Below are positions 40,496 through 61,164 of a DNA stretch of 64,000 nt, piece by piece. The notes beneath the pieces were generated by a model. The model did no database searches, was not told the origin of the DNA, and was given only the letters and a program-made list of their open reading frames with translations. The position numbers and the translations under genes were made by a program. Source of the stretch: Vreelandella jeotgali Hwa (GTDB lineage Bacteria > Pseudomonadota > Gammaproteobacteria > Pseudomonadales > Halomonadaceae). Position 1 is the stretch's first letter. Each line of letters begins with the position of its first letter. Location of the stretch: the NCBI RefSeq assembly GCF_000334215.1, contig NZ_AMQY01000014.1, positions 248,001 through 312,000 on the forward strand, read 5' to 3'.

Positions 40496-41719
40496 CTATT
40501 CGGCTTGTGGCCCAAGCCAGGCCTGAATCGCCTTCATTGCCGCGGCTGAAGGGCGGGCGTTGGCTTTGCCGCTGGCTTCGCTGAGCAGCCAGGTACGTCC
40601 TTGAGGGCGTAGCGCGACGGTGACCGGCTCCGGGCTATGCAGGTGATAAATGGCTATCTGCCCGGCGGCAATGGCACCGTCGTAGGCGCCAATGCAGTGG
40701 CGCATTGTTTTCCCTTCCTGCAGCAGTCCGTCCCAGCTGATGATGGGGTCGATGTGTTTATTGCCGGGCAGCGGCGGGTCGGGATAAAAGCCGTGCCGCT
40801 GCAGCAGGGTGATGGGGTGCGATGTTCGCTCGGTTTCATGCCGAGCGGCGTTAAGCCGCTCCACCAGGCGGTCGTGAAGTCGGTTGAGTGTCGCCAGCGA
40901 ATCTACGCGTTCGGGTCTGCGGTCGCCTGCCGGCAGCATGCGTTCCACATCCTGCAGCGTGCTTTGCAGCCGGGAGGTAGTGCCCACCGGCAGTTGTTGA
41001 TCGCCCGGCGCGTTGTAGGTGAAAAGCTCATCAATCATGGCGGGCAGGCCAGGCCAGCGGTCACCGTTAAAACGCCCGAGAAAGAGCAGGTGATCCAGGC
41101 TCGGGGTGGCGTAATGGCGCAGTATGGCCAGGTTGGGCTCATGGGTCAGCGCACGGCGTATGGCCACAATATCGCCGCGGGTCATCGGGCGTAGCCGGCA
41201 GCGCCTGATCAGCCGCGCGCAGGATTTTGTGCCGAGAATCCCGACGGCGCTGCATACGTCGGCCTGCTTGTTGGCCAATACGTGAGCCAGAACTTCCGGC
41301 GTCCACGTTTCCTCAACGCCACGCTCGACGAGCATGATCAGTAGAAGCGGCGCGCTGGCCGCGAGGTCGCGTGCGGCACTTAACCGGCCGCATGCCTGTG
41401 CCAGTTCCACGCCGATAAAAGGCGCCAGCGATATGGCGCCCCGGACGGTTTCCGGCATACCTGCCAGCAGCTCTTCTCCCTGTATCGTTTCCAGCATTGT
41501 CCATTCAATGCCCGGTGACGCCAAAAAGTCGCCGCGAGCGAGCAACTCGCCGTCGTGCAGACTGTGCCAGGTGAAGGGAGTCGCCGAACGCCACGCGGCT
41601 ACGTGCAGAGTCAACGGATAGCCCACGGCCCGGGAGACGTCCAGCGTTCTGATGGGAGGGTGGCATCCATCGTTGACCGGCACCTTACGGCGTCGTGCAA
41701 CAAACCATTTTTTCAGCAT
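40496..41719 (-). CDS. PcfJ-domain-like protein
   Basis: A 407-residue protein. The C-terminal 100 residues show the PcfJ-like pattern: EGKTMRHCIGAYDGAIAAGQIAIYHL, then TVALRP...WLLSEASGKANARP and a final WLG. The N-terminal 270 residues are helical and unassigned. PcfJ was first noted on conjugative plasmids of Gram-positive bacteria; its function is unknown. In-frame codons continue upstream to 41887, but the chosen start MLKKWFVARRRKV is the first plausible soluble N-terminus. It converges with the cytochrome gene. Confidence 0.7.
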   Translation of the reverse strand: MLKKWFVARRRKVPVNDGCHPPIRTLDVSRAVGYPLTLHVAAWRSATPFTWHSLHDGELLARGDFLASPGIEWTMLETIQGEELLAGMPETVRGAISLAPFIGVELAQACGRLSAARDLAASAPLLLIMLVERGVEETWTPEVLAHVLANKQADVCSAVGILGTKSCARLIRRCRLRPMTRGDIVAIRRALTHEPNLAILRHYATPSLDHLLFLGRFNGDRWPGLPAMIDELFTYNAPGDQQLPVGTTSRLQSTLQDVERMLPAGDRRPERVDSLATLNRLHDRLVERLNAARHETERTSHPITLLQRHGFYPDPPLPGNKHIDPIISWDGLLQEGKTMRHCIGAYDGAIAAGQIAIYHLHSPEPVTVALRPQGRTWLLSEASGKANARPSAAAMKAIQAWLGPQAE

Positions 41720-42463
41720 CGGTCCGTTCCGTCCGAGGAGCAAAAGGGGCGCGGCATTGCCAACAGAGGCGTCTCGAACGCAGAGGCACAGGTCAATGCG
41801 GCGCGGGGGGAATGTGATCGCTGCGAAGAAGCGGTAGCAAACATGCGGTGAGTGCCTCCAGGCGAGTAACAGGGCAGCATCATGCATGGCGAATGCGACA
41901 TACCGAGTCGCATGGTGATTGCACCCGTGCTGGTGCTCCCGGACACCCGCGAATGAATGGATCGATTGTTCATTGCCCGGCAGCGGCGGGTCCGGAGACA
42001 GGCCTGACGGACAATCGCGCTATGTAGGCGAGCACTGTGGTGCCACACGCAGTTGCCGAAAATGCCTAAAAGAAGTACTCTCATAAGTGAAAGTTATGGA
42101 TGCCGCAACGGCTCCGGCTACCCGTGCGAATTTTCCCCCACGGTAGCCGCCAGGTAGTGCAAGGACAGGCAGTTCAGGATACCACTTCGGCCCATGCGCC
42201 ACCCCCTGATATGTTTTCGGCACGCTTCGCCGCCGCCTGCGCACTACCTCCGCACACGATACGTGACGTAAGCGCCTGTCTATCCCGGCCGGCATACGGT
42301 CCGGTGATGCTTTAGGCCTGCCCGCACCGTGCAGGCCCGGGTATGTTTTGTGTTTTCAATCAGGCTGTACCACGCAGCGGGCGTCCATGACATCCAGCCA
42401 TGCGGTTATTGCGCAGTGCTCTGAGCCTGCCTGCGCGGTACTCGTCGACCGGAGCATGATGAT
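41720..42463. other. 740-bp spacer before tmm
   Basis: It includes the possible N-terminal extension of the PcfJ-like gene up to 41887. At about 42311-42332 GGCCTGC and GCAGGCC form a hairpin around CCGCACCGT. I see no convincing gene; small frames on both strands lack ribosome sites and family similarity. Confidence 0.5.
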
Positions 42464-46119: not shown

Positions 46120-47837
46120 CCCGCCTCATTCACGAGGGGGCTGATCGGGCTGTCTGAAGGTGCTGGTTGACGGAATTGCTCATTAGGACCGTAATTTCTG
46201 ACGCGAGCGGCCGCTGAGTAATGCTCACACGCGTCTTTTAGCCCGCTTTCTTATAGCTTTTGGGAATCAATTCCAACCGTCAAAGCAGCCGAGACCGCCG
46301 GCCGCCGCTGCGGTCGCTTGATGTCGGGTCCTGTAGTGGTCTCGCGGGGTGTCAGCTCAGCGCGGCCAACTTCGGCAGCCCCTTCAGCAGTGCCGGCCAC
46401 CACTTGTCGGCGGCGGCGCCGAGGTGAACCGTGATGCGCCGAGCGTGCAGCCTCAGCGTGGCGGCCACCTTGAGCACCTGCTCGCGCATCCGGCTCAGGC
46501 TCCAGCCTTGCCGGGTCTGCCGCTCCAGCAGGCAGCGCAGGCCATGTAGCACCTGATAGGCGTAGAGGCTCAGCAGCAGGCTCACCTCGTTGCGGGCCAT
46601 CACGTCCTGGACGGTGGAGGCGCCGCGATCGGTCGACGAGAGGTGTACGTCGAGCGCCGACTTCACCTCGCCCATGTGCGCCTCGGCGCTGCCGCGCTTG
46701 CGGTAGAGCGCCAGAACCTTCTCCGGCGGCCAGTCGAACTTGCCGAGGTTGGTGACCAGGAAGAAGGCATGCAGCAGCAGATCATCGGGGCGTTCCTGCA
46801 CCACCAACACCACGCGCCGTGGCGTCGGCCAGGTACCGGCCTGGTATTCAAGGTCGTGGCACCATTCCCGAGGCTGCTCGGGCGGCCGGCCGCGGGGCCG
46901 CTTCAGGTAAGGCGCCGCCAGCTTCTGCAGGCCGGTGTGACTGCGCAGCCGGCCCAGGTACTCGATGTCCCGCTCTTCTAGGGCCTCCAGCGTGTCGTTG
47001 TCGGTGAAGCCGGCGTCGATGCGCACCCGAACCTGGGCGCCAGTGCTTTCGTTGAGCCGCTTCACCAGGTGAGGGATCCAGGTATCGGCGTTCTCGGCGG
47101 GGCCAGCGTTACCTTCGCGCAACAGGCCGCCCACCATGTCACCGGTTTCGGCCAGTGAGGCGACCAGCGGCGAGTAGATGCGGGCCCCGTACAGGCCATG
47201 ATAGGCCGAGCCGCCCTGGTGGCCGTGGACCTCGATCGGCAGGCCGTCGATATCCAGCGTCAGCTGCTTGGGGCGTTCACCGTTCTTCAGCGAGGTCAGG
47301 CGCCAGAGCACCAGCCGCAGCAGGCCTTCGTGCACGGTATCGATGTTGTCGTTGCGCCCGAGACAAGTCAGCAACCGCGACAGCGTGGCTTGAGACGGCC
47401 GCTCTTGGGCCAGGGGCGTCATGCCACGTGCATCGCTGCAAGCCAGCTGCCAGAGCGGATCGTGACGCAGCGTGTCGGTATCGTCCAGGTCGATCCAGCC
47501 CATCGCCCGCTGCATGACCACGGTGCGTAGCTGGCTGGCCAGCGAATGACGGATACGCAGTGGGTGTCGTCGATCGACCAGGTTGTCGTCGAGGGCCTCG
47601 ATCACGCCGCTGTTGTCGAGGGCTTCACGCAGCAGCAGAGCGCCGCTGTCACTAGTGGTGCGGTGGCCGCTCAGCTCGACACGGACGGAGCCGTTGCACG
47701 AGGGCGACCAGGTCGTTAGGGTTTCACCCATGGCGAGTGGTCCTCTTGAATCGTGTTCTGGCAGGAACATCCTGATTCTACAAGAGAAAACCACTCGCCA
47801 TCTTCGTTTTCAGGCCGGCTTCATGAATAAGCCAGGG
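46120..47837. mobile_element. IS1380-family insertion sequence, 1718 bp
   Basis: Left end CCCGCCTCATTCACGAG and right end (read inward) CCCTGGCTTATTCATGAA are imperfect inverted repeats. Flanks show the 4-base duplication TTAT (46116-46119 and 47838-47841). One transposase gene lies on the minus strand. Confidence 0.9.
46352..47731 (-). CDS. IS1380-family transposase
   Basis: A 459-residue transposase beginning MGETLTTWSPSCNGS (GAGGA nine bases upstream). It has the family core: LTLDIDGLPIEVHGHQ (first catalytic Asp), RIDAGFTDNDTLEALE (second Asp) and YRKRGSAEAHMGEVKSAL (Glu). The frame looks intact, so the element may still be mobile. The 21 codons before the chosen start are inside the element but lack a ribosome site. 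Confidence 0.95.
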   Translation of the reverse strand: MGETLTTWSPSCNGSVRVELSGHRTTSDSGALLLREALDNSGVIEALDDNLVDRRHPLRIRHSLASQLRTVVMQRAMGWIDLDDTDTLRHDPLWQLACSDARGMTPLAQERPSQATLSRLLTCLGRNDNIDTVHEGLLRLVLWRLTSLKNGERPKQLTLDIDGLPIEVHGHQGGSAYHGLYGARIYSPLVASLAETGDMVGGLLREGNAGPAENADTWIPHLVKRLNESTGAQVRVRIDAGFTDNDTLEALEERDIEYLGRLRSHTGLQKLAAPYLKRPRGRPPEQPREWCHDLEYQAGTWPTPRRVVLVVQERPDDLLLHAFFLVTNLGKFDWPPEKVLALYRKRGSAEAHMGEVKSALDVHLSSTDRGASTVQDVMARNEVSLLLSLYAYQVLHGLRCLLERQTRQGWSLSRMREQVLKVAATLRLHARRITVHLGAAADKWWPALLKGLPKLAALS

Positions 47838-51433: not shown

Positions 51434-51488
51434 TTAAATATGCCAAGCTTGAGCCATATTCCGGCAGAGTAAAGGAGGCAGGCTGCGT

Positions 51489-54400
51489 ATGAAGGACGAC
51501 GCCAACCAACATCCAATAGGGCTCATTTACAGGTCGATCCACCGAGCGGTTCGAGAAGCGACCGAGCCGCATATCCATCAGAGCAATCAGGCGACGGGTA
51601 CGGGCAAGACCTATCAGGCACTGATGACCTCCGTAGAGGCGCTTGAGCAGGCCAAGGCGGCCGGCGAGTCGCTGATTGTGGTCTACGTAGCGCCGCAGCA
51701 TCGCCATATTCCCTTTGAAAATCGCGCGGGGCGGCACCCGTCAGGCAGCCCCCAGGCGCTGTTGGCCGCGGCGGATATTCCTGCGGTCAAGGTGAATTCG
51801 CGCACGCTGCTCACCGACCCCGAAGAAGCGCACAATCTGTATCAGGATCTTAACCAGACCGAGCGGCACCTGAAATCCAGCTATGATGATAAAGCCGCCC
51901 CGAGCCTGGTGCGTTGCCTGCAGCAGCTGCTCTATCAATTTCAGAGCCCCCAAACGGTAGAACAGGAGCTGCCCGAAAACGCGCTGGATATCACGCGAAG
52001 CCTTATCCAGCGCCAGCAAAAAACGCTTGGGCGGCTGCGCCAGGAAGGCTTCACCGAGGCCGAACTGGAGCGCAATCTGGAACGGTTGCAACACGCCCAT
52101 GATCGGCTATTTAGCGAGCTGCAGCGCGCGGTGGACGTTGCGCTTAAGCAAAGTACGTTGGACGGCAAAACGCTGGAGAGCGTGTTGGGGCACAAGGCAC
52201 TGGTTGCGCCGTTTCGTTTCTTCCAGCGCCAGCTATTCCCTTGGTATGAGGTGGTGCGCCGCCCGGGCGGCCCGCTGGGCATGGTCGCCATGACCGCCTC
52301 GCGGCTGATGACGCGCCACCGGTTTCCGTGCCCGCGGCGGGCCCTTGCGTCAGCGGACAAGGGCGACTTCACTACCACGCAGTGCTATGTGGAAGACGCC
52401 ATTCACGGCGCCGGTGCAGGCAGCGATGTTAGCGGCTTGAATGAGGGGCGCACGCGCTTTTTGCTGCTGCTGGATGAGTCCGATGAGGTCAAGCAAGTGC
52501 TGAATCAGGCCGCGAGCGTCGGTAAAACAGCGAGGCGTCGCTACCTCAGCGGTATGCTGTTGGATCAGGCCCGCGCTACCCAGATTGGCAATACGCTGCT
52601 TAATGAAATGCCGTTGGTGTTTTGCACGGCGGCGCACCGCGACGCGGTATGGGAGGGCTACAAAGCGCTGGAGGAAGCTCATCCAGGCCTTGTTGGGCAC
52701 AACGAGGCAACGACTCCCGACAAAGTAGAAAAGCTGCGCCCGCTGCCACCGGAGGCGGAGCTAGCGCTGCGCCAGCATCAGCGTCGGCACAAGCTGGGTA
52801 CCGGCAGCCCGGCGCATCATCTACAGCAGCTGCGTCTGCGCGAGCGGCTGGTGGAACTGATCGACCGGCAGTATTGCGAACATGCGGTGATTCATGGCAG
52901 CGGCGAAGACAAGCTTGGGCTGTTTGTGCGTCAACTGAAGGCGTTTTGCCAACGGGTTTCCTGGATTAACCTGAATCTGGGCGATCCCACTGTGGCGGCG
53001 GCAGGCAGCACGGGCACCTTTACCGCCGGCAGCTGGGCGTTCGTCAACCTTGACGATGAGCGCCTGGCCGGCCTGCTGGCGCACCGCGACAGCGCCGACG
53101 TCAATGAGCTGGATATCATCAGCGAGGCATTTTTGCACCGCTCCGGCGGCGAGACGAGCGGCACGACCTTTGCCCTGGCGGATAGCTTTGAGCTGATGCT
53201 GACGCTGACCGGCCTTGTGCATCTGATGGAAAATACCGCCGAGCAGCGCGCGTTTAGACTGCTTAAAGCCCCTTACCGTGGCAATAACCGCACTTCGTCT
53301 GCGCCGCTGACCGAGATGCTTGAGCGTCTGGCCGGCGTGCAGATGCGCGAGCTGATGACCGCACGCCGTGATCTCGCCCCCGGGGCGGTGATCGACGACG
53401 ATATCGCCTTTCGCTTTCCGCACCTGATCATGCAGTGGGTGCCGGATTTTGCCCGTCGCTTTGTGCCCGGTGCGCCGGGGGAGTCCGTGGTGCCCGCGAT
53501 CGGCTTTCGCGCCTGGTCAGCCGAGCACCATCTGGAGCAGCTGATTTCACCGCAGGCTTACGCGTTCAGCCGCCCCGACATGGCGGATAGCGTCTCCGGC
53601 CGCCAGCGGCCGGCGCACAGCCTGGTGCTTATTAGCGCGACCGGCGGTTTCGCCGCGACGCACCTTGGAGGCTTTGCCGGCGCTATGTTGGCGCACTCCC
53701 GCTTTGTGCGCTATGTGCCCATGTCAAAAGCGGATCTGGAGCTGGCGCGTCAGGCACGAGACATACGCCATCAGGGGCAGGACGGTAAGTCGGGCCGGCC
53801 CAAGCCCTGCGTGGCACAGCTGCCCGAGCATGCGGGCCTGCTGGCGGAAGACGCGCGCGGGCCGCTGCTGGTTGAGCTTGATGAGACGTTGGCGCAGACC
53901 ACCACCAACTCGTTCAAGCGCCGTGAAACCCGCCGCGTGGTCGAGCTAATTACGCTGCTGGGGCATGCGCCGCGACGTATAGCGCCCGATACAATGTCAA
54001 CGGCGGACATTCATGGGGCAGTGCAGCCGGCGCTGGTGGAAAACGCTGAGCCCTGCATGGCGCTGATGCTGATCCAGTCGCTGAAAACGCCGGTAGCGGT
54101 GCTCAAGCAGCTGTGTGGCAAGCGCTTGACGTCGATTATCGACGGCCACCTGTACGGCTATGATACCGGACGCCGCGACGGCAGCCGGCCAGTACTGCTG
54201 GTGACCTACTACAGCGGCCGAGAGTCTGGCACCGATGCGCGAATTAACCAGATGCTGCGCGGTGAAGGAAGCGGCAGCCAGCAGGAGCGCCAGACGTTTG
54301 CGCAGTTTTTGCAGCGGGCCAATCCGGCTCTCGATTTGGCACGTGCCTTTCCCGCCGAAGATGCCTCCGGCACGCCGCAGCAGTACGCGGCGACCGACCT

Positions 54401-56153
54401 GCTGCGCCGCGATATGGGCTACCACGCCGCGATCATTACGGCGTTTCAGTCCGCCGGATTGGGGCTCAATTTCAAGGTGGATACCCACCTGGGGCGGGAC
54501 GGCGAGCGCGATGTGGATATGCTGGTGCTGGGTATGTCGCCGCACTTTACCGCGGCGCGTCCGCGCTTTGAGCGCTACCAGGGTCCGCCTGGCGAACGCC
54601 AGCCGGAAGAACCCCAGTTCAAGCGCGATAGCCGCGGGGAGCACAATCGACGCGCTTTTGTGCATAACAACCGCGTGATTCACGGCGTGGCGCTGACCGG
54701 CATGGAGCTTGCCGCGCGGCTTAACCAGCAGCGCTGGGGACGCGAAGAGGATATGCCCGCTCGGCATTATCGCGCCCGCCATATTCGCTTGCATCCGGAC
54801 AGCTACCTGGCGGCATTCCCCGCTTTCCTGCGCGAACAGCATGTCGTGGATCTGGCGCGGACGGTATTTCAAGCAGCGGGGCGTGGCGAGCGCACCCAGG
54901 CGGCACAGCCGCAGACGCTCTTGGTGTGCGATGAGATAATCACCGATCTGGTAGCGGCAGATCCTTATCTTTACGGCGATGACGGCCATGGCGGCTCACG
55001 CGCGGATCAGCAGCACGCGGCTTCGCTCAACAGCCTGGCGCTGATGGAGTACGCCCGTCGCTATCGTCGCCGCATGTATGGCTATCCTGCCCCTGAAGAC
55101 CGCGCCGCCGCTGAGGTTCAGCTGCGCCAGGCGGAGCAGGCCTTCAGCGATAATCCGGCGGTGCCCGGCTTTAAAAATCGCTTGTTACAGCGTATCAAGC
55201 AGATGCAGGCCGGTGAGCTTGCGTCCAGCGAGGCTGCGGAGCTGATACGCCAGTGGGAAGCCTGGCGAGATCCGGCGCTACTATTCGCCCAAACGCGCAA
55301 GGCTTACCGCCACCAGGCGCTTGCGGCCGGCGTGCCGGAAAAGATACTGGCGCTGATGTGGTGGCCGCTATCGGCTAACTGCCGGCTGCCTGTTTACAAG
55401 GGGGCCAACGGTTACGCGGGCATAGCGCTGGTGCCGCCCCATGACGATGAGGCCGATAACGCCACGCCTTATCCCCACGCCGCCCAGGGGTTTCGTCTGC
55501 CGAGCGATATGCTTCAGCACATGCAGCGTCACGGCATCGCACATCCGGACTGGACGGCTCCCACGCTACACGATGTGGATAACGCCAGCGTACTGCATCC
55601 GATACTGGAGCCGGACGCCAACGGCATCTGGGGCGAGCTGGCGCTGGACGGCTGGTTTGCCGACGTGAAGGCCGAGCTAGCGGGCGCTGAACGCCTGAGC
55701 GGTATCGACACCCAGCGCATCTACGAGCTGTTTGATCGCTACTGGCGCTGCCGAGCGGCAGACGGCGAATACGTGCTGATCGCGCTGGATGCCAAGCACT
55801 ACGCCCGCGCCACAGATCGGCGGCTGGGTACCGCCGTAAGCGATGACGCGCAGGGCAAACAGGACGCCGTACGCCGCTGGGCTCGGGAGCACGGCTATGG
55901 TCGCACGGTGATGGCCTACGTTAATACGCGGCCGTGCCCGCAGGAAGAGGCCCGCGCCGGCATTCAGCGGGCCGATCTGCTGTCTTTCAGCGCCTTTGTG
56001 CGCACGCTGCCTACGGACGTCAACGCCCCTCGTGATGTGTCGTTTGCCGAGACCAGCGTGCCCTCGGGCACCCCGCTGGAGTCACCGCTGTTGGCAGTTA
56101 ATCCCGTTGCGGCCGAACGCTTGCTGGCCGCCGTTCAAGGAGATATTCCATGA
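51489..56153 (+). CDS. 1554-aa SF2 helicase-like protein with a C-terminal PD-(D/E)XK-type nuclease region
   Basis: A very large protein with AAAGGAGG ten bases before ATG. Visible SF2-type motifs in order: Walker A TGTGKT (36-41), Walker B LLLLDESD (325-332), motif III-like LISATGG (714-720), motif IV-like VLLVTYYSG (902-910), motif V-like FQSAGLGLNF (986-995) and motif VI-like QAAGRGER (1128-1135). About 380 residues separate motifs II and III, far more than in ordinary helicases. Near the C-terminus IYELFDRYW (1411-1419) and YVLIALDAKHY (1428-1438) match the Glu helix and the (D/E)XK strand of PD-(D/E)XK nucleases. The stop overlaps the next gene by ATGA. I cannot assign it to a named system. 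Overlapping codons and close GC to the surroundings suggest an established island, not a recent arrival. Confidence 0.75.
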   Translation: MKDDANQHPIGLIYRSIHRAVREATEPHIHQSNQATGTGKTYQALMTSVEALEQAKAAGESLIVVYVAPQHRHIPFENRAGRHPSGSPQALLAAADIPAVKVNSRTLLTDPEEAHNLYQDLNQTERHLKSSYDDKAAPSLVRCLQQLLYQFQSPQTVEQELPENALDITRSLIQRQQKTLGRLRQEGFTEAELERNLERLQHAHDRLFSELQRAVDVALKQSTLDGKTLESVLGHKALVAPFRFFQRQLFPWYEVVRRPGGPLGMVAMTASRLMTRHRFPCPRRALASADKGDFTTTQCYVEDAIHGAGAGSDVSGLNEGRTRFLLLLDESDEVKQVLNQAASVGKTARRRYLSGMLLDQARATQIGNTLLNEMPLVFCTAAHRDAVWEGYKALEEAHPGLVGHNEATTPDKVEKLRPLPPEAELALRQHQRRHKLGTGSPAHHLQQLRLRERLVELIDRQYCEHAVIHGSGEDKLGLFVRQLKAFCQRVSWINLNLGDPTVAAAGSTGTFTAGSWAFVNLDDERLAGLLAHRDSADVNELDIISEAFLHRSGGETSGTTFALADSFELMLTLTGLVHLMENTAEQRAFRLLKAPYRGNNRTSSAPLTEMLERLAGVQMRELMTARRDLAPGAVIDDDIAFRFPHLIMQWVPDFARRFVPGAPGESVVPAIGFRAWSAEHHLEQLISPQAYAFSRPDMADSVSGRQRPAHSLVLISATGGFAATHLGGFAGAMLAHSRFVRYVPMSKADLELARQARDIRHQGQDGKSGRPKPCVAQLPEHAGLLAEDARGPLLVELDETLAQTTTNSFKRRETRRVVELITLLGHAPRRIAPDTMSTADIHGAVQPALVENAEPCMALMLIQSLKTPVAVLKQLCGKRLTSIIDGHLYGYDTGRRDGSRPVLLVTYYSGRESGTDARINQMLRGEGSGSQQERQTFAQFLQRANPALDLARAFPAEDASGTPQQYAATDLLRRDMGYHAAIITAFQSAGLGLNFKVDTHLGRDGERDVDMLVLGMSPHFTAARPRFERYQGPPGERQPEEPQFKRDSRGEHNRRAFVHNNRVIHGVALTGMELAARLNQQRWGREEDMPARHYRARHIRLHPDSYLAAFPAFLREQHVVDLARTVFQAAGRGERTQAAQPQTLLVCDEIITDLVAADPYLYGDDGHGGSRADQQHAASLNSLALMEYARRYRRRMYGYPAPEDRAAAEVQLRQAEQAFSDNPAVPGFKNRLLQRIKQMQAGELASSEAAELIRQWEAWRDPALLFAQTRKAYRHQALAAGVPEKILALMWWPLSANCRLPVYKGANGYAGIALVPPHDDEADNATPYPHAAQGFRLPSDMLQHMQRHGIAHPDWTAPTLHDVDNASVLHPILEPDANGIWGELALDGWFADVKAELAGAERLSGIDTQRIYELFDRYWRCRAADGEYVLIALDAKHYARATDRRLGTAVSDDAQGKQDAVRRWAREHGYGRTVMAYVNTRPCPQEEARAGIQRADLLSFSAFVRTLPTDVNAPRDVSFAETSVPSGTPLESPLLAVNPVAAERLLAAVQGDIP

Positions 56154-58957
56154 CCGTGATTTCTTCTGCGACTGTCGGCGTTGCTGCGCTTGACGCCGAG
56201 ACGCCGCTGATGGATTTGCGCACCAACCAGATAGACCTGGGGCTTGCGCCGGAAAAACCGGGTGCCGGCGACCGCGCCCTTGATCTGGGCGAGAAGCTGT
56301 TGGCTTACTGCGCCGCCGCGGCGCGGACCGAACACGGCGAACGGCTAATGGCGGTTGCGCTGCTGTCGGCTGACGAGATGTACGCCCGTGGGCCGGTGGC
56401 GGCAGACCCCGATGCCCCGTCCGAGGTGCTGAAAACGCTTGAAGAGCAGGGTGGCGATGCGCCAGGCGAGTCAGAGGCTCTTGAAGCTATTGGTCGGACC
56501 GGCTCGCTGTTTGCCTCACCCGAGGCAAGTGAGATTCCGCAGCCCAAGGCCGCGCCGGCTCCCGAACGGCTACCTTATCGCTGGCTTAACCGCCAGGCGA
56601 CCCAACGCTTCACCCAGCTGATGGCGGCTACCCACGGCCAGGCAGCGGGTGCGGTGCGCAGCAAGCGCTTTGCCGGCGTGTTAGATATCTATGTAGGCAA
56701 CGGCCGGCATATCAAGCCGCGTGCCACGGGGCTAATGCTGCTGGGCGGCGAGGCGCCCGCTGACCCTGCACTGGCCGCACGGCTGTCAGACCCTGACACC
56801 GTGGCGCTGGACACGCCCGAAGCGCGCCGCGAATGGCTCGGCGCTCTGGCCCACTGGGGCGACCAGTACCGCTACGGCGCGCATGTTCAGGCCAACATTC
56901 GGTTGCAGCAGCTGATGGAGCTGGCGCTGCGCGTCTATCTGCGCCGGCAGGGCATAGAGGACGGCGCTCCGGAAGACGAGCTGGGGCTGCTGCTGGGCAG
57001 TACGTTGATGCTGCGCGTGTCGCTGAAAGCCGGCATGCTCAAGGGCTACCGCCTTGAGATTGCCATCGACAAGAGCGGTAGGCTCAGCGTGAAAACGATC
57101 AAAAGCGCACAGTCGATCGGCTCGCTGAACGCCCAGCGCGAGGTCGCAGACGCGCTGGGCCGAGGGGTTGTGGAATACCCTGGTTTGCCGCTGCTGGAAT
57201 GCCAGGCGCTCGCTCCCCAACACCGGCGCGACGCGACGCGCTTTTGCAGCGATATGGATTTTTTCCACGCAGTATATCTCGGAGCTGATTCAACCCGCGA
57301 CGAACGGCGGGAAAAATGGGCCGCCAAGCACGGTCAGGAACAGGCAGATGAGTTAGAGCGCAAGCACCGCCGAGCCGTGTTGAAGAGCGGCATTGTGCGC
57401 AAAAATCGCGCCCAGGATCTGGTCGAGCACTGCCTTGATGAAGCGCTAGGGAAGGATGCCGTGACACCGTGTCGTTTTCAGCCCGTAGAAGGGCGGCGGG
57501 TGCCCGTGCGCAGCAAGGGCAAAGAAGCGGATGCGCTGCCCGTGTTTTTGCGCGAAGGGCTGCCCGGCCTGCAGGTGGTATACGGTGAAAACCTGCCCAA
57601 AAGTGCCGAACGCCGCGAGCTACACGCCGCTCTTGAGCGGGCGCTGATACGCCACGGCGTTTTTGGCCACGATGCCAAGTACTCGTCCAAACAGCGCATT
57701 CGCGTATGCGAGAACCTTAAGCAGACCCAAGATAGCGATCACCCCGTGCTGGTTGTGCAAGTGCCGACAGCCGAGCGCACATCGCGCGGCGCAAGTGTGG
57801 CCACCAGCGGCTGGGTAGCGCTTGGCGGCGACGCTCGCAGGCCGCTGACCGGCAACGCCACGGCGCACGCGCTGGCGGCCAGGGAGTACGCCGGCGAGCA
57901 AAAAATCGGCTGGCGGGCGGATGCTTATACCCAAGCCAAGCTAACGCTTTACGACACTGGCCGTGACGACTGGCGCGCTCTGCAGGGGCTAAACCTGTCC
58001 TCGGCGGATATGGATCAGCTCATGGTTGATAAAGAGCGGGGAGAGCTTCAGCACAAGCTGGCTAACATCAGCCACGAGCTGAAATACAAATACCGCCTGC
58101 AGCAGGGCGAGGATTTCCCGCTGAGCGGTGCCTGGCGGGCGCTATCCCGCCAACAGCTGGAAGGTTCAGACGCAGGCCAGCGTTTTGTTTGCCTGTACGG
58201 CCACTCGCCCAAGGGCTCGGCGGCCCGAGCCGCCGTGCTCGAATACGCGCTAAGCGGTGATACGCTTCGGGTGCTGCGCTGGGCCACCGGCACCTGCCGG
58301 CTGCCCGGGTCGGAGCGCACGACGTTTTCGGCTGCTGCGGCTAACAGAACTCAGCTGTATAAAGCCTATTGCGCTGCGCTTGAAAGCTGGCCTCAATCCT
58401 CGGCCGTGCGGCTGGAGGCGATGCTTGAAGGCATGGTAGCAGGGCATCACCCGCTTAACGACGCGCTGCTGGTGTACTCGCCGGATGACAACCAGCTGCT
58501 GGTAGAGCAGCAGCGCTGGGGCAGCGCCGAGCTATTGGGCGCCACGTGGCGCGACTTTCCTTTTACGCGCATTCTGCGCGACGGACCGCAGCAGGGCGAT
58601 AAAAAGCTGCCCAATCTTGCGCGTTCCAATGAAGGCGGTCCGGCCGCCGCCGCGCAGCTCATCCCGTTACCGCACCAATACGATGTGCTGCTGGAGCCTG
58701 CAGGCGCGAAAGTGCACGGCATCCGCGCCATGCGTAACGCCCAAGGGAAAGAAAAGCGCAACAACCCCTTGATCAGCTGGCAGGTGCTTGAGCCCCAGCG
58801 CCAGGGTAAAACCCAGCTTCAGGCAGTTGACGCGCCGCACCAACAGCCGGTGTTTCACAGCTTTATCGAGACACTAACGGACAACCTGATCAAGCAGGGC
58901 AGCATCAGCCGCACGCCGCTGCCCGGCAAGCTGGTTAAGCTGCTGGTGAGTAATTGA
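56150..58957 (+). CDS. 935-aa protein of unknown family, partner of the helicase-like protein
   Basis: Starts in the stop of the helicase-like gene (AAGGAGAT before the ATG), so the two are translationally coupled and probably made in fixed ratio. It has no signal peptide or membrane helices. Residues 85-140 are a flexible acidic/Pro-Ala-rich linker; the rest has alternating strands and helices, with a charged helical segment at about 380-425 and a conserved-looking C-terminal part (VFHSFIETLTDNLIKQGS, about 901-918). I see no catalytic motif I can name. Possibilities are a nucleic-acid-binding guide or sensor, or an RNase H-fold (Argonaute-like) protein as in helicase-nuclease-PIWI-RE operons; neither is shown by the sequence. 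Confidence 0.75.
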   Translation: MTVISSATVGVAALDAETPLMDLRTNQIDLGLAPEKPGAGDRALDLGEKLLAYCAAAARTEHGERLMAVALLSADEMYARGPVAADPDAPSEVLKTLEEQGGDAPGESEALEAIGRTGSLFASPEASEIPQPKAAPAPERLPYRWLNRQATQRFTQLMAATHGQAAGAVRSKRFAGVLDIYVGNGRHIKPRATGLMLLGGEAPADPALAARLSDPDTVALDTPEARREWLGALAHWGDQYRYGAHVQANIRLQQLMELALRVYLRRQGIEDGAPEDELGLLLGSTLMLRVSLKAGMLKGYRLEIAIDKSGRLSVKTIKSAQSIGSLNAQREVADALGRGVVEYPGLPLLECQALAPQHRRDATRFCSDMDFFHAVYLGADSTRDERREKWAAKHGQEQADELERKHRRAVLKSGIVRKNRAQDLVEHCLDEALGKDAVTPCRFQPVEGRRVPVRSKGKEADALPVFLREGLPGLQVVYGENLPKSAERRELHAALERALIRHGVFGHDAKYSSKQRIRVCENLKQTQDSDHPVLVVQVPTAERTSRGASVATSGWVALGGDARRPLTGNATAHALAAREYAGEQKIGWRADAYTQAKLTLYDTGRDDWRALQGLNLSSADMDQLMVDKERGELQHKLANISHELKYKYRLQQGEDFPLSGAWRALSRQQLEGSDAGQRFVCLYGHSPKGSAARAAVLEYALSGDTLRVLRWATGTCRLPGSERTTFSAAAANRTQLYKAYCAALESWPQSSAVRLEAMLEGMVAGHHPLNDALLVYSPDDNQLLVEQQRWGSAELLGATWRDFPFTRILRDGPQQGDKKLPNLARSNEGGPAAAAQLIPLPHQYDVLLEPAGAKVHGIRAMRNAQGKEKRNNPLISWQVLEPQRQGKTQLQAVDAPHQQPVFHSFIETLTDNLIKQGSISRTPLPGKLVKLLVSN

Positions 58958-59590: not shown

Positions 59591-60973
59591 TTATTCGAGA
59601 GTGTAGCAGGGGGTGTACGGCTGGTCGCCCAGCTTCATGCGGCCCTGGGCGGCGAAGGACGTGAGCAGGGTATCGAGTTTTTGCATCATATCCGGCTCGG
59701 CGCTGAGTTGGAACGGGCCTTTGGCGGCAATCGCGCGGATACCGTCTTCCTTGACGTTGCCCGAGACAATGCCCGAAAACGCGCAGCGCAGGTTGGCGGC
59801 AAGCTCGTGGGTGGGCTGGTCCCGGTGGAGCTTCAGGTTGCGCATGGCCTCGTGGCTGGCATCGAAGGGCGCCTGAAAGCCCCGTGCAATGGTCAGCCGC
59901 CAGTTATAGTAAAAGGCATCCTGGTGGGTACGACGAAACCGGGTAATGTCGTCAACGCCCTGGCGCATGACGCGGGCCACTTCCGCCGGGTTGCCGGTAA
60001 CGATGCGGTAGTAGCGGCGCACGTCTTCGCCCAGGGTGCAGACCAGAAATTCGTCGATGGTGCGGAAGTAGTCGGCCGCGCTGGCCGGGCCGGTGAGAAT
60101 CAGCGGGTAGGGAATATCGGCGTTGTCCGGGTGGAGGAGGATGCCCAGCAGGTAGAGGATTTCCTCGGCCGTACCCACGCCGCCGGGAAAGACGATAATA
60201 CCGTGCCCCAGACGCACGAACGCTTCCAGACGCTTTTCGATGTCCGGCATCACGACCAGCTCGTTGACAATGGGATTGGGCGCTTCCGCGGCGATGATGC
60301 CAGGTTCCGAAATGCCCAGGTAGCGGCTGTCGGAGCGGCGCTGCTTGGCGTGGGCCAGGTTGGCGCCTTTCATCGGGCCTTTCATCGCGCCGGGGCCGCA
60401 GCCGGTGCAGATATCGAGCTCGCGCAGGCCCAGCTGGTAGCCCACGTCCTTGGTGTATTCGTATTCCTCTCGGGAAATGGAGTGCCCGCCCCAGCAGACC
60501 ACCATGCTGGGGTCATGTTCGGGCCGGAACGCGCCGGCCTTGCGCAGAATGTGGAACACCGCATTGGTGGTGCCTTCTGCAGTCGACAGGTCGAAGCGGT
60601 CGTGTTCCTGAATTTCGTTGTAAACGTAGACAATATCGCGGATAACGGCGGACAGATGCTCGCGGATACCGCGAATCATGCGGCCGTCGACAAACGCCTC
60701 GGCCGGGGCGTTGCTGAGCTTGAGGCGGACGCCGCGATCCTGTTGCAGCACTTCAATGTCGAAGTCCTTGTACGCTTCCAGCAGCGCCAGGCTGTCATCG
60801 GTGGGCATGCCGCTGTTGAGGACCGCCAGCGAGCAGCGGCGCAGCAGCTCGTGGAGCCCCGTTCTGGAGGTGTGCTTGAGCCGGTTGACTTCGTGTTGCG
60901 AGAGCACTTCCAGACTGCCTTCCGGGGAAATGATGCTGGAAAGCGTGGGGCGCTGCGGGGCGGTATCGCTCAT
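59591..60973 (-). CDS. ppnN: nucleotide 5'-monophosphate nucleosidase
   Basis: A 460-residue PpnN (YgdH) of the LOG-like family, close to the 454 residues of the E. coli enzyme. It splits purine and pyrimidine monophosphates into base and ribose 5-phosphate and is activated by (p)ppGpp. Landmarks: LSQHEVNRL, CTGCGPGAMKGPMKGA, and the signature FPGGVGTAEEILYLLGI. Two upstream in-frame ATGs (60988, and one further up) have no better ribosome site; the start is uncertain by up to 5-20 residues. Confidence 0.93.
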   Translation of the reverse strand: MSDTAPQRPTLSSIISPEGSLEVLSQHEVNRLKHTSRTGLHELLRRCSLAVLNSGMPTDDSLALLEAYKDFDIEVLQQDRGVRLKLSNAPAEAFVDGRMIRGIREHLSAVIRDIVYVYNEIQEHDRFDLSTAEGTTNAVFHILRKAGAFRPEHDPSMVVCWGGHSISREEYEYTKDVGYQLGLRELDICTGCGPGAMKGPMKGANLAHAKQRRSDSRYLGISEPGIIAAEAPNPIVNELVVMPDIEKRLEAFVRLGHGIIVFPGGVGTAEEILYLLGILLHPDNADIPYPLILTGPASAADYFRTIDEFLVCTLGEDVRRYYRIVTGNPAEVARVMRQGVDDITRFRRTHQDAFYYNWRLTIARGFQAPFDASHEAMRNLKLHRDQPTHELAANLRCAFSGIVSGNVKEDGIRAIAAKGPFQLSAEPDMMQKLDTLLTSFAAQGRMKLGDQPYTPCYTLE

Positions 60974-61094
60974 CGTGGGGCTGTCCATCCTTGCGTTGGG
61001 TGCTGCATTCAGCGGGGTCGAATCGGCGGCCATATTAGCATGCTGCCTGCGGTGATACAGCGCTGGCGCCGCCCTGTAGGGGCTCGTTTCAAGC

Positions 61095-61125
61095 AAAACG
61101 CCCCGCGCTCGGCGAGCACGGGGCG
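61095..61125 (-). terminator. Rho-independent terminator after gcvP
   Basis: Read on the minus strand, CGCCCCG, an inner paired loop, CGGGGCG and TTTT form a strong hairpin about 40 bases beyond the gcvP stop. It separates gcvP from ppnN. Confidence 0.8.
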
Positions 61126-61164
61126 TAGCGTTACGGCGCGGCCGGCATCCGGCAATCGTGGCGT

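Follow-up and report, generated by a model that had tools for sequence, protein, structure and literature searches.

The operon examined here is most probably (roughly 0.82) an anti-plasmid system of the ApsAB/DdmDE family, and a highly divergent one. It lies in a window of 64,000 nucleotides, the whole stretch of DNA analysed, from Vreelandella jeotgali Hwa (NZ_AMQY01000014.1). ORF1 (51489..56153, + strand, 1554 aa) reads as an ApsA/DdmD-family SF2 helicase with a C-terminal PD-(D/E)XK nuclease, and ORF2 (56150..58957, + strand, 935 aa) as a putative ApsB-like (Argonaute-like) partner. A previous sequence-only reading had presented the pair as a candidate new defence or nucleic-acid-processing system. 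Its outline of a helicase-nuclease with a large partner, likely serving defence, stands; the novelty does not, since both proteins match the described ApsAB system, ORF1 clearly and ORF2 in its guide-pocket motif and C-terminal end. The anti-phage character that it read from the shape of the operon also gives way, as the relationship to ApsAB makes plasmids, not phages, the likely target.

The gene structure agreed in full with that reading, including both sets of coordinates and lengths and the ATGA overlap, in which the ATG of ORF2 (56150-56152) interlocks with the TGA of ORF1 (56151-56153). A strong ribosome-binding site read from the sequence, AAAGGAGG (51471..51478, + strand), ends 10 bases 5' of the first ATG of ORF1. 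It had also been claimed that the unit contains no other gene, and this was borne out: the 5' neighbour, a 171-aa open frame with no PADLOC match, ends 280 bp upstream of ORF1, the 3' neighbour lies on the opposite strand, and no third gene is clearly part of the unit. A sigma-70 consensus scan returned 0 promoter sites versus 2.3 expected, and terminator-like sites were at chance level (5 found, 7.1 expected). GC3 was 0.73 for ORF1 and 0.72 for ORF2, in the same range as 11 other measured window genes (0.70-0.83).

Searches of Pfam, NCBIfam, PHROGs, PADLOC (2023 version) and PDB sequences named neither protein, in keeping with the earlier statement that neither could be matched to a named system. 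No Pfam model, PIWI-RE or other, was significant on either, and what weak library matches there were fell within the helicase part of ORF1: PhoH (E = 0.18), TIGR04121 (E = 0.08) and PbeA (E = 0.005) around Walker A, and typeIV_DinG (E = 0.03) over residues 113-224. The proposed likeness to Hachiman, DISARM and Druantia is unsupported, with the PADLOC models of these systems giving no match to either protein at E ≤ 5. Searches with tblastn against 72,556 plasmids and 50,697 phage records returned nothing for ORF1 or ORF2, and scans of genome and viral contigs yielded no relatives; five genome loci from one scan were judged unrelated, and one viral-contig candidate (L004) reads by eye as a generic phage SF2 helicase. 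ApsA and ApsB themselves have no significant match in Pfam, NCBIfam or PADLOC (2023), and relatives at the distance of the window pair therefore go unseen in these libraries.

ApsAB is an anti-plasmid operon of Escherichia coli ST38 that its authors group with DdmDE (PMC11096173, here and below from excerpts of the article). Within the literature searched, this was the only article with many mentions of ApsAB. The excerpts give the ApsA motifs as GFGKS 218, DELH 532, SAT 823, QAVGRVER 1140 and D1420...DVK 1433-1435, and a conserved Y409-x3-K413...Q431-G...K489 in ApsB. They also report that plasmid removal was abolished by mutating the ApsA helicase residues K221 or E533 or the ApsB pocket residue K413, and weakened by mutating the ApsA nuclease residue K1435. 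The genes were reached from an ST38 genome named in the consulted part of PMC6963479, through its tRNA-Leu integrase to other genomes and their island, where two genes are annotated as 'hypothetical protein' (E. coli NZ_CP032145.1, 5037026-5043963). The listed residues of both proteins, together with N743, all fall at the published positions, which identifies the products as ApsA (1569 aa) and ApsB (743 aa). As in the window pair, the helicase-nuclease gene comes first and the genes overlap by 4 bp. DNA resembling apsAB was present in 147 of 5,426 complete E. coli genomes, 141 of them covering 80% or more of the query. The tRNA-Leu island of E. coli 266917_2 (L100:4195-23663) keeps the integrase and contains IS26-flanked resistance genes, in the place taken by fimbrial and apsAB genes in two genomes with the same integrase (L101, L102).

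A tblastn search with ApsA uncovered a second, uncharacterised pair of 1372 and 727 aa on plasmid NZ_AP029020.1 of Acidovorax sp. DW039 (L104:5331-11632), with the same gene order and a 1-bp overlap. The pair is plasmid-borne, though characterised family members remove plasmids, and is followed by a TIR-domain gene (L104:12072-12455). With its second protein as query, a 414-aa fragment was found in Comamonas. This is an isolated plasmid gene (L105:7995-9239) with 60% identity to the C-terminal part only of the Acidovorax ApsB-like protein, and no ApsA-sized gene is listed in its 17-kb stretch, for which the gene table is incomplete.

By sequence, ORF1 is an ApsA homologue in which the motifs of an SF2 helicase are intact and a PD-(D/E)XK nuclease site is present. 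The helicase assignment of the earlier reading is upheld by Walker A TGTGKT (motif I, residues 36-41, 51594..51611), which aligns with ApsA TGFGKS (GFGKS 218-222), DESDE (motif II, residues 329-333, 52473..52487), matched to DELH 532 by order and not by residue alignment, SAT (motif III, residues 716-718, 53634..53642), aligned with ApsA SAT 823-825, FQSAGLGLN (motif V, residues 986-994, 54444..54470), aligned with YKSAGTGLN, and QAAGRGER (motif VI, residues 1128-1135, 54870..54893), aligned with QAVGRVER 1140-1147; all lie on the + strand. The suspected nuclease tail is likewise present: Y1412-E-L-F-D1416...D1434-A-K1436 (55722..55796, + strand) aligns with the mutagenised ApsA site D1420...D1433-V-K1435 and resembles YELFD...DFKNW of DdmD. 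Motif order is that of ApsA, and no interval departs from its ApsA counterpart by more than about 100 residues.

Pairwise and profile comparisons gave the same picture. BLASTP matched ORF1 collinearly with the Acidovorax protein at E values, in a tiny database, of 3e-7 (motifs V-VI), 0.002 (nuclease) and 0.015 (Walker A), and with ApsA, again collinearly and in a tiny database, at 0.002, 0.004, 0.027 and 0.042, the ApsA stretches (not the full length) being 22-33% identical. The Acidovorax protein is the best pairwise match of ORF1 (24% identity, or 22% in another alignment). A profile of ApsA and the first Acidovorax protein (A5) aligned with ORF1 in hhalign at 97.4% probability (E = 1.4e-11, 590 columns, ORF1 residues 509-1266). 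In hmmsearch it ranked ORF1 first of 1576 sequences (E = 1.9e-10; next, E = 3), a set made up of ORF1 and ORF2, 1002 window proteins in shuffled or reversed form, and 572 real open frames (300 aa or longer), of which many are probably non-coding. Because the real frames were drawn from loci that include the L004 phage SF2 helicase, along with the five unrelated genome loci, generic helicase similarity is unlikely to explain this score. After addition of ORF1 (profile A3), a PDB search returned one distinct sequence up to E = 10, DdmD (9ix4, E = 0.0032), through Walker A, motif VI and the nuclease YELFD...DFKNW, in order, each stretch being weak alone; neither A5 nor a profile of ORF1 with the Acidovorax protein (A7) reached DdmD.

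The resemblance of ORF2 to ApsB is concentrated in two separate stretches. In a MID-like motif of the kind that would form a 5'-guide-end pocket (57926..58090, + strand), Y593-x3-K597-x14-Q612-G613...K647 matches all four ApsB positions, Y409, K413, Q431-G432 and K489. A conserved C-terminal stretch of 32 residues (58859..58954, + strand) ends in N935, as ApsB ends in N743. A three-row profile of ApsB, the Acidovorax partner and the Comamonas fragment (A6) aligned with ORF2 in hhalign over 69 columns corresponding to the guide-pocket region (E = 5.9e-4, probability 28.9%), with a score of 39.2 versus best scores of 26.1 among 400 shuffles and 26.3 among 155 real frames. The last 32 residues scored 43, compared with at most 11.7 in the 572 frames, and exceeded all 20000 of 20000 shuffles. 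Over the whole length, hmmsearch was marginal (E = 0.028, with one shuffle at 0.043). A tight pocket pattern, written after seeing the sequences, occurred in none of the 572 frames and none of the 1002 shuffles or reversals, and a loose one in 6 and 62, respectively. Similarity was limited to the MID-like region and the C-terminal tail: the N-terminal half of ORF2 gave no match, and the alignment with the Acidovorax partner is 17% identical. The PDB matches listed for a four-protein profile including ORF2 (A4) were all antibody chains (best E = 0.056), with neither an Argonaute nor DdmE among them, and AlphaFold run without an alignment gave a pLDDT of 34 for ORF2 and 43 for its MID region, values unusable as support for a fold. 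Judged by the two matching stretches, ORF2 is nonetheless ApsB-like in sequence.

Taken together, the pair belongs with ApsAB by sequence and would be predicted to work like it, the two sharing gene order, the 4-bp overlap, the helicase motifs, the D..DxK nuclease, the Y-x3-K..QG..K pocket and the C-terminal asparagine. They differ in that ApsA carries an N-terminal extension of about 180 aa that ORF1 lacks, and in that ORF2 is 192 aa longer than ApsB, the extra length going with the unmatched N-terminal half. By way of profile A3 only, ORF1 lines up with DdmD at a Walker A close to the N-terminus, at motif VI and at the YELFD..DxK nuclease. ORF2 does not fit a DdmE-type partner, as no DdmE was listed with the A4 profile and as it has the MID-like motif that DdmE lacks according to the excerpts of PMC11096173. 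The combination of a short DdmD-like N-terminus with an ApsB-type partner is already found in the Acidovorax pair, which shares gene order and motifs but is only 24% identical to ORF1 and is set apart by its plasmid location and the TIR-domain gene. What sets the window pair apart is ORF2, longer than its counterparts and unmatched in its N-terminal half.

In the DdmDE system, as described in the available part of PMC12409362, DdmE is catalytically inactive and, once loaded with a guide, locates plasmid DNA. The DdmD dimer dissociates, and DdmD engages the non-target strand, moving 5' to 3' and cutting. One sentence in section 3 of PMC12904381, also consulted in part, swaps the two names; its table and PMC12409362 both give DdmD as the helicase-nuclease. 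Given that the residues mutated in ApsAB have counterparts in ORF1 and ORF2, we infer a DdmDE/ApsAB-like cycle. By analogy, ORF2 would anchor the 5' end of a short guide in its MID-like pocket without cutting DNA itself. Pairing of the guide with plasmid or other invading DNA would lead ORF2 to recruit ORF1, which may then load on the displaced strand, translocate with ATP and nick or degrade the invader.

Several other explanations were weighed against an anti-plasmid system. The same guided helicase-nuclease action might now be directed mainly at phages or integrating elements, given that family membership of ORF1 is well supported and that target range is unreadable from sequence; we regard this as unlikely, as ApsAB and DdmDE, the two branches characterised so far, both target plasmids. 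An alternative in which ORF1 is related to ApsA and ORF2 is a different DNA-recognition subunit of a non-guided, restriction-like machine draws on the unmatched N-terminal half of ORF2, its 17% identity to the Acidovorax partner, the marginal hmmsearch result and the lack of an Argonaute among the PDB matches of A4. It is nevertheless improbable in view of the four guide-pocket residues and the C-terminal tail kept in ORF2, and of the pairing of the same helicase family with ApsB-like proteins in both E. coli and Acidovorax.

Still less credible is a housekeeping or mobile-element DNA-processing pair, such as a replication or conjugation helper. An IS1380-family transposase gene and a PcfJ-like gene do lie about 4 kb and 10 kb upstream, respectively, but sporadic occurrence (1 of 275 genomes of the family, the window's own) and homology to ApsA with intact catalytic sites speak against such a role. 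A PIWI-RE type system, comprising a DinG helicase, a restriction nuclease and pPIWI-RE, offers the same functional parts of helicase, nuclease and large last gene, as well as the weak typeIV_DinG match. The described triad, however, has three genes, one of them for a separate nuclease, and a DinG helicase rich in cysteines (PMC3702460), whereas in the window pair the nuclease is fused, the stretch from motif I to motif II contains only 3 cysteines, and no Pfam model is significant. The PIWI-RE comparison drawn in the earlier reading is therefore apt as an analogy and fails as membership, and we give it hardly any credence as an account of the operon.

Within the ApsAB/DdmDE family, the pair could represent a separate deep branch, in which an ApsA-type motor that has a short DdmD-like N-terminus is combined with an ApsB-type guide protein carrying an extra unmatched N-terminal module, and its guide, guide source or target may differ from those of the known branches; we put this forward only tentatively. 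The window and Acidovorax pairs are both farther from E. coli ApsAB than the second E. coli system tested in PMC11096173 (28/25% identity, from its excerpts), and the tree in that article may hold members equally distant. They provide a small set for building better profiles. If active, the window pair would offer an independent way to test which parts (guide pocket, C-terminal tail, short motor N-terminus) are essential in guided plasmid removal.

No close relatives of the pair were found in the sampled genomes. In overlapping draws, ORF2 was found in 1 of 293 genomes of the order and ORF1 in 1 of 275 of the family, each time the window's own genome, and ORF1 in 2 of 369 genomes of the class and 2 of 398 of the phylum, where the second match looks like chance; a draw of 289 genomes from another class held none. 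Two candidate relatives of ORF1 were rejected as looking like chance: one (L003) aligned at 28-29% over roughly 100 residues of a 222-aa open frame, and the other (L010) over 59 residues of a frame judged by eye to encode a GGDEF protein. Genome searches with family queries gave 0 of 185 for ApsA, 0 of 70 for A6 and 1 of 71 for A3, the last being the window itself. This search is insensitive: in the window's own genome ApsA missed ORF1 and A6 missed ORF2, so that the absence counts exclude closer relatives only, and the rarity of the pair holds for these alone. An ApsA-motif pattern applied to viral contigs picked out 32 loci; at 24 of them the motif was read in a frame, and inspection by eye showed the rest of the ApsA order in none of the 24.

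Finally, we compared the chromosomal setting with that in relatives. The pair adjoins ppnN and gcvP, and in roughly 20 kb examined in each of 20 same-genus genomes (taken from 40 with ppnN among 41 searched) gcvP and ppnN were adjacent in 20 of 20, the pair was present in 0 of 20, and the sequence after ppnN varied. The pair thus looks like an accessory insertion. Location in a defence island, a check proposed in the sequence-only reading, is not borne out: PADLOC found no defence genes among 10 other window proteins, and the ppnN flank finds no support as a hot spot for defence. Pfam was run on 9 of the 52 large downstream frames from the relatives: 8 were metabolic, transport, signalling or phage frames and 1 had no match. 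The accessory stretch upstream of the pair includes the PcfJ-like gene (40496-41887) and the IS1380-family transposase gene (46352-47794), the latter 90% identical in DNA to a Pseudomonas putida plasmid copy and 88% to Halomonas plasmid copies. The gap between gcvP and ppnN is about 0.2 kb in the window (60956-61164) versus 1.1-1.2 kb separating the two matches in the 20 relatives, 19 of which have in common an extra opposite-strand frame there.
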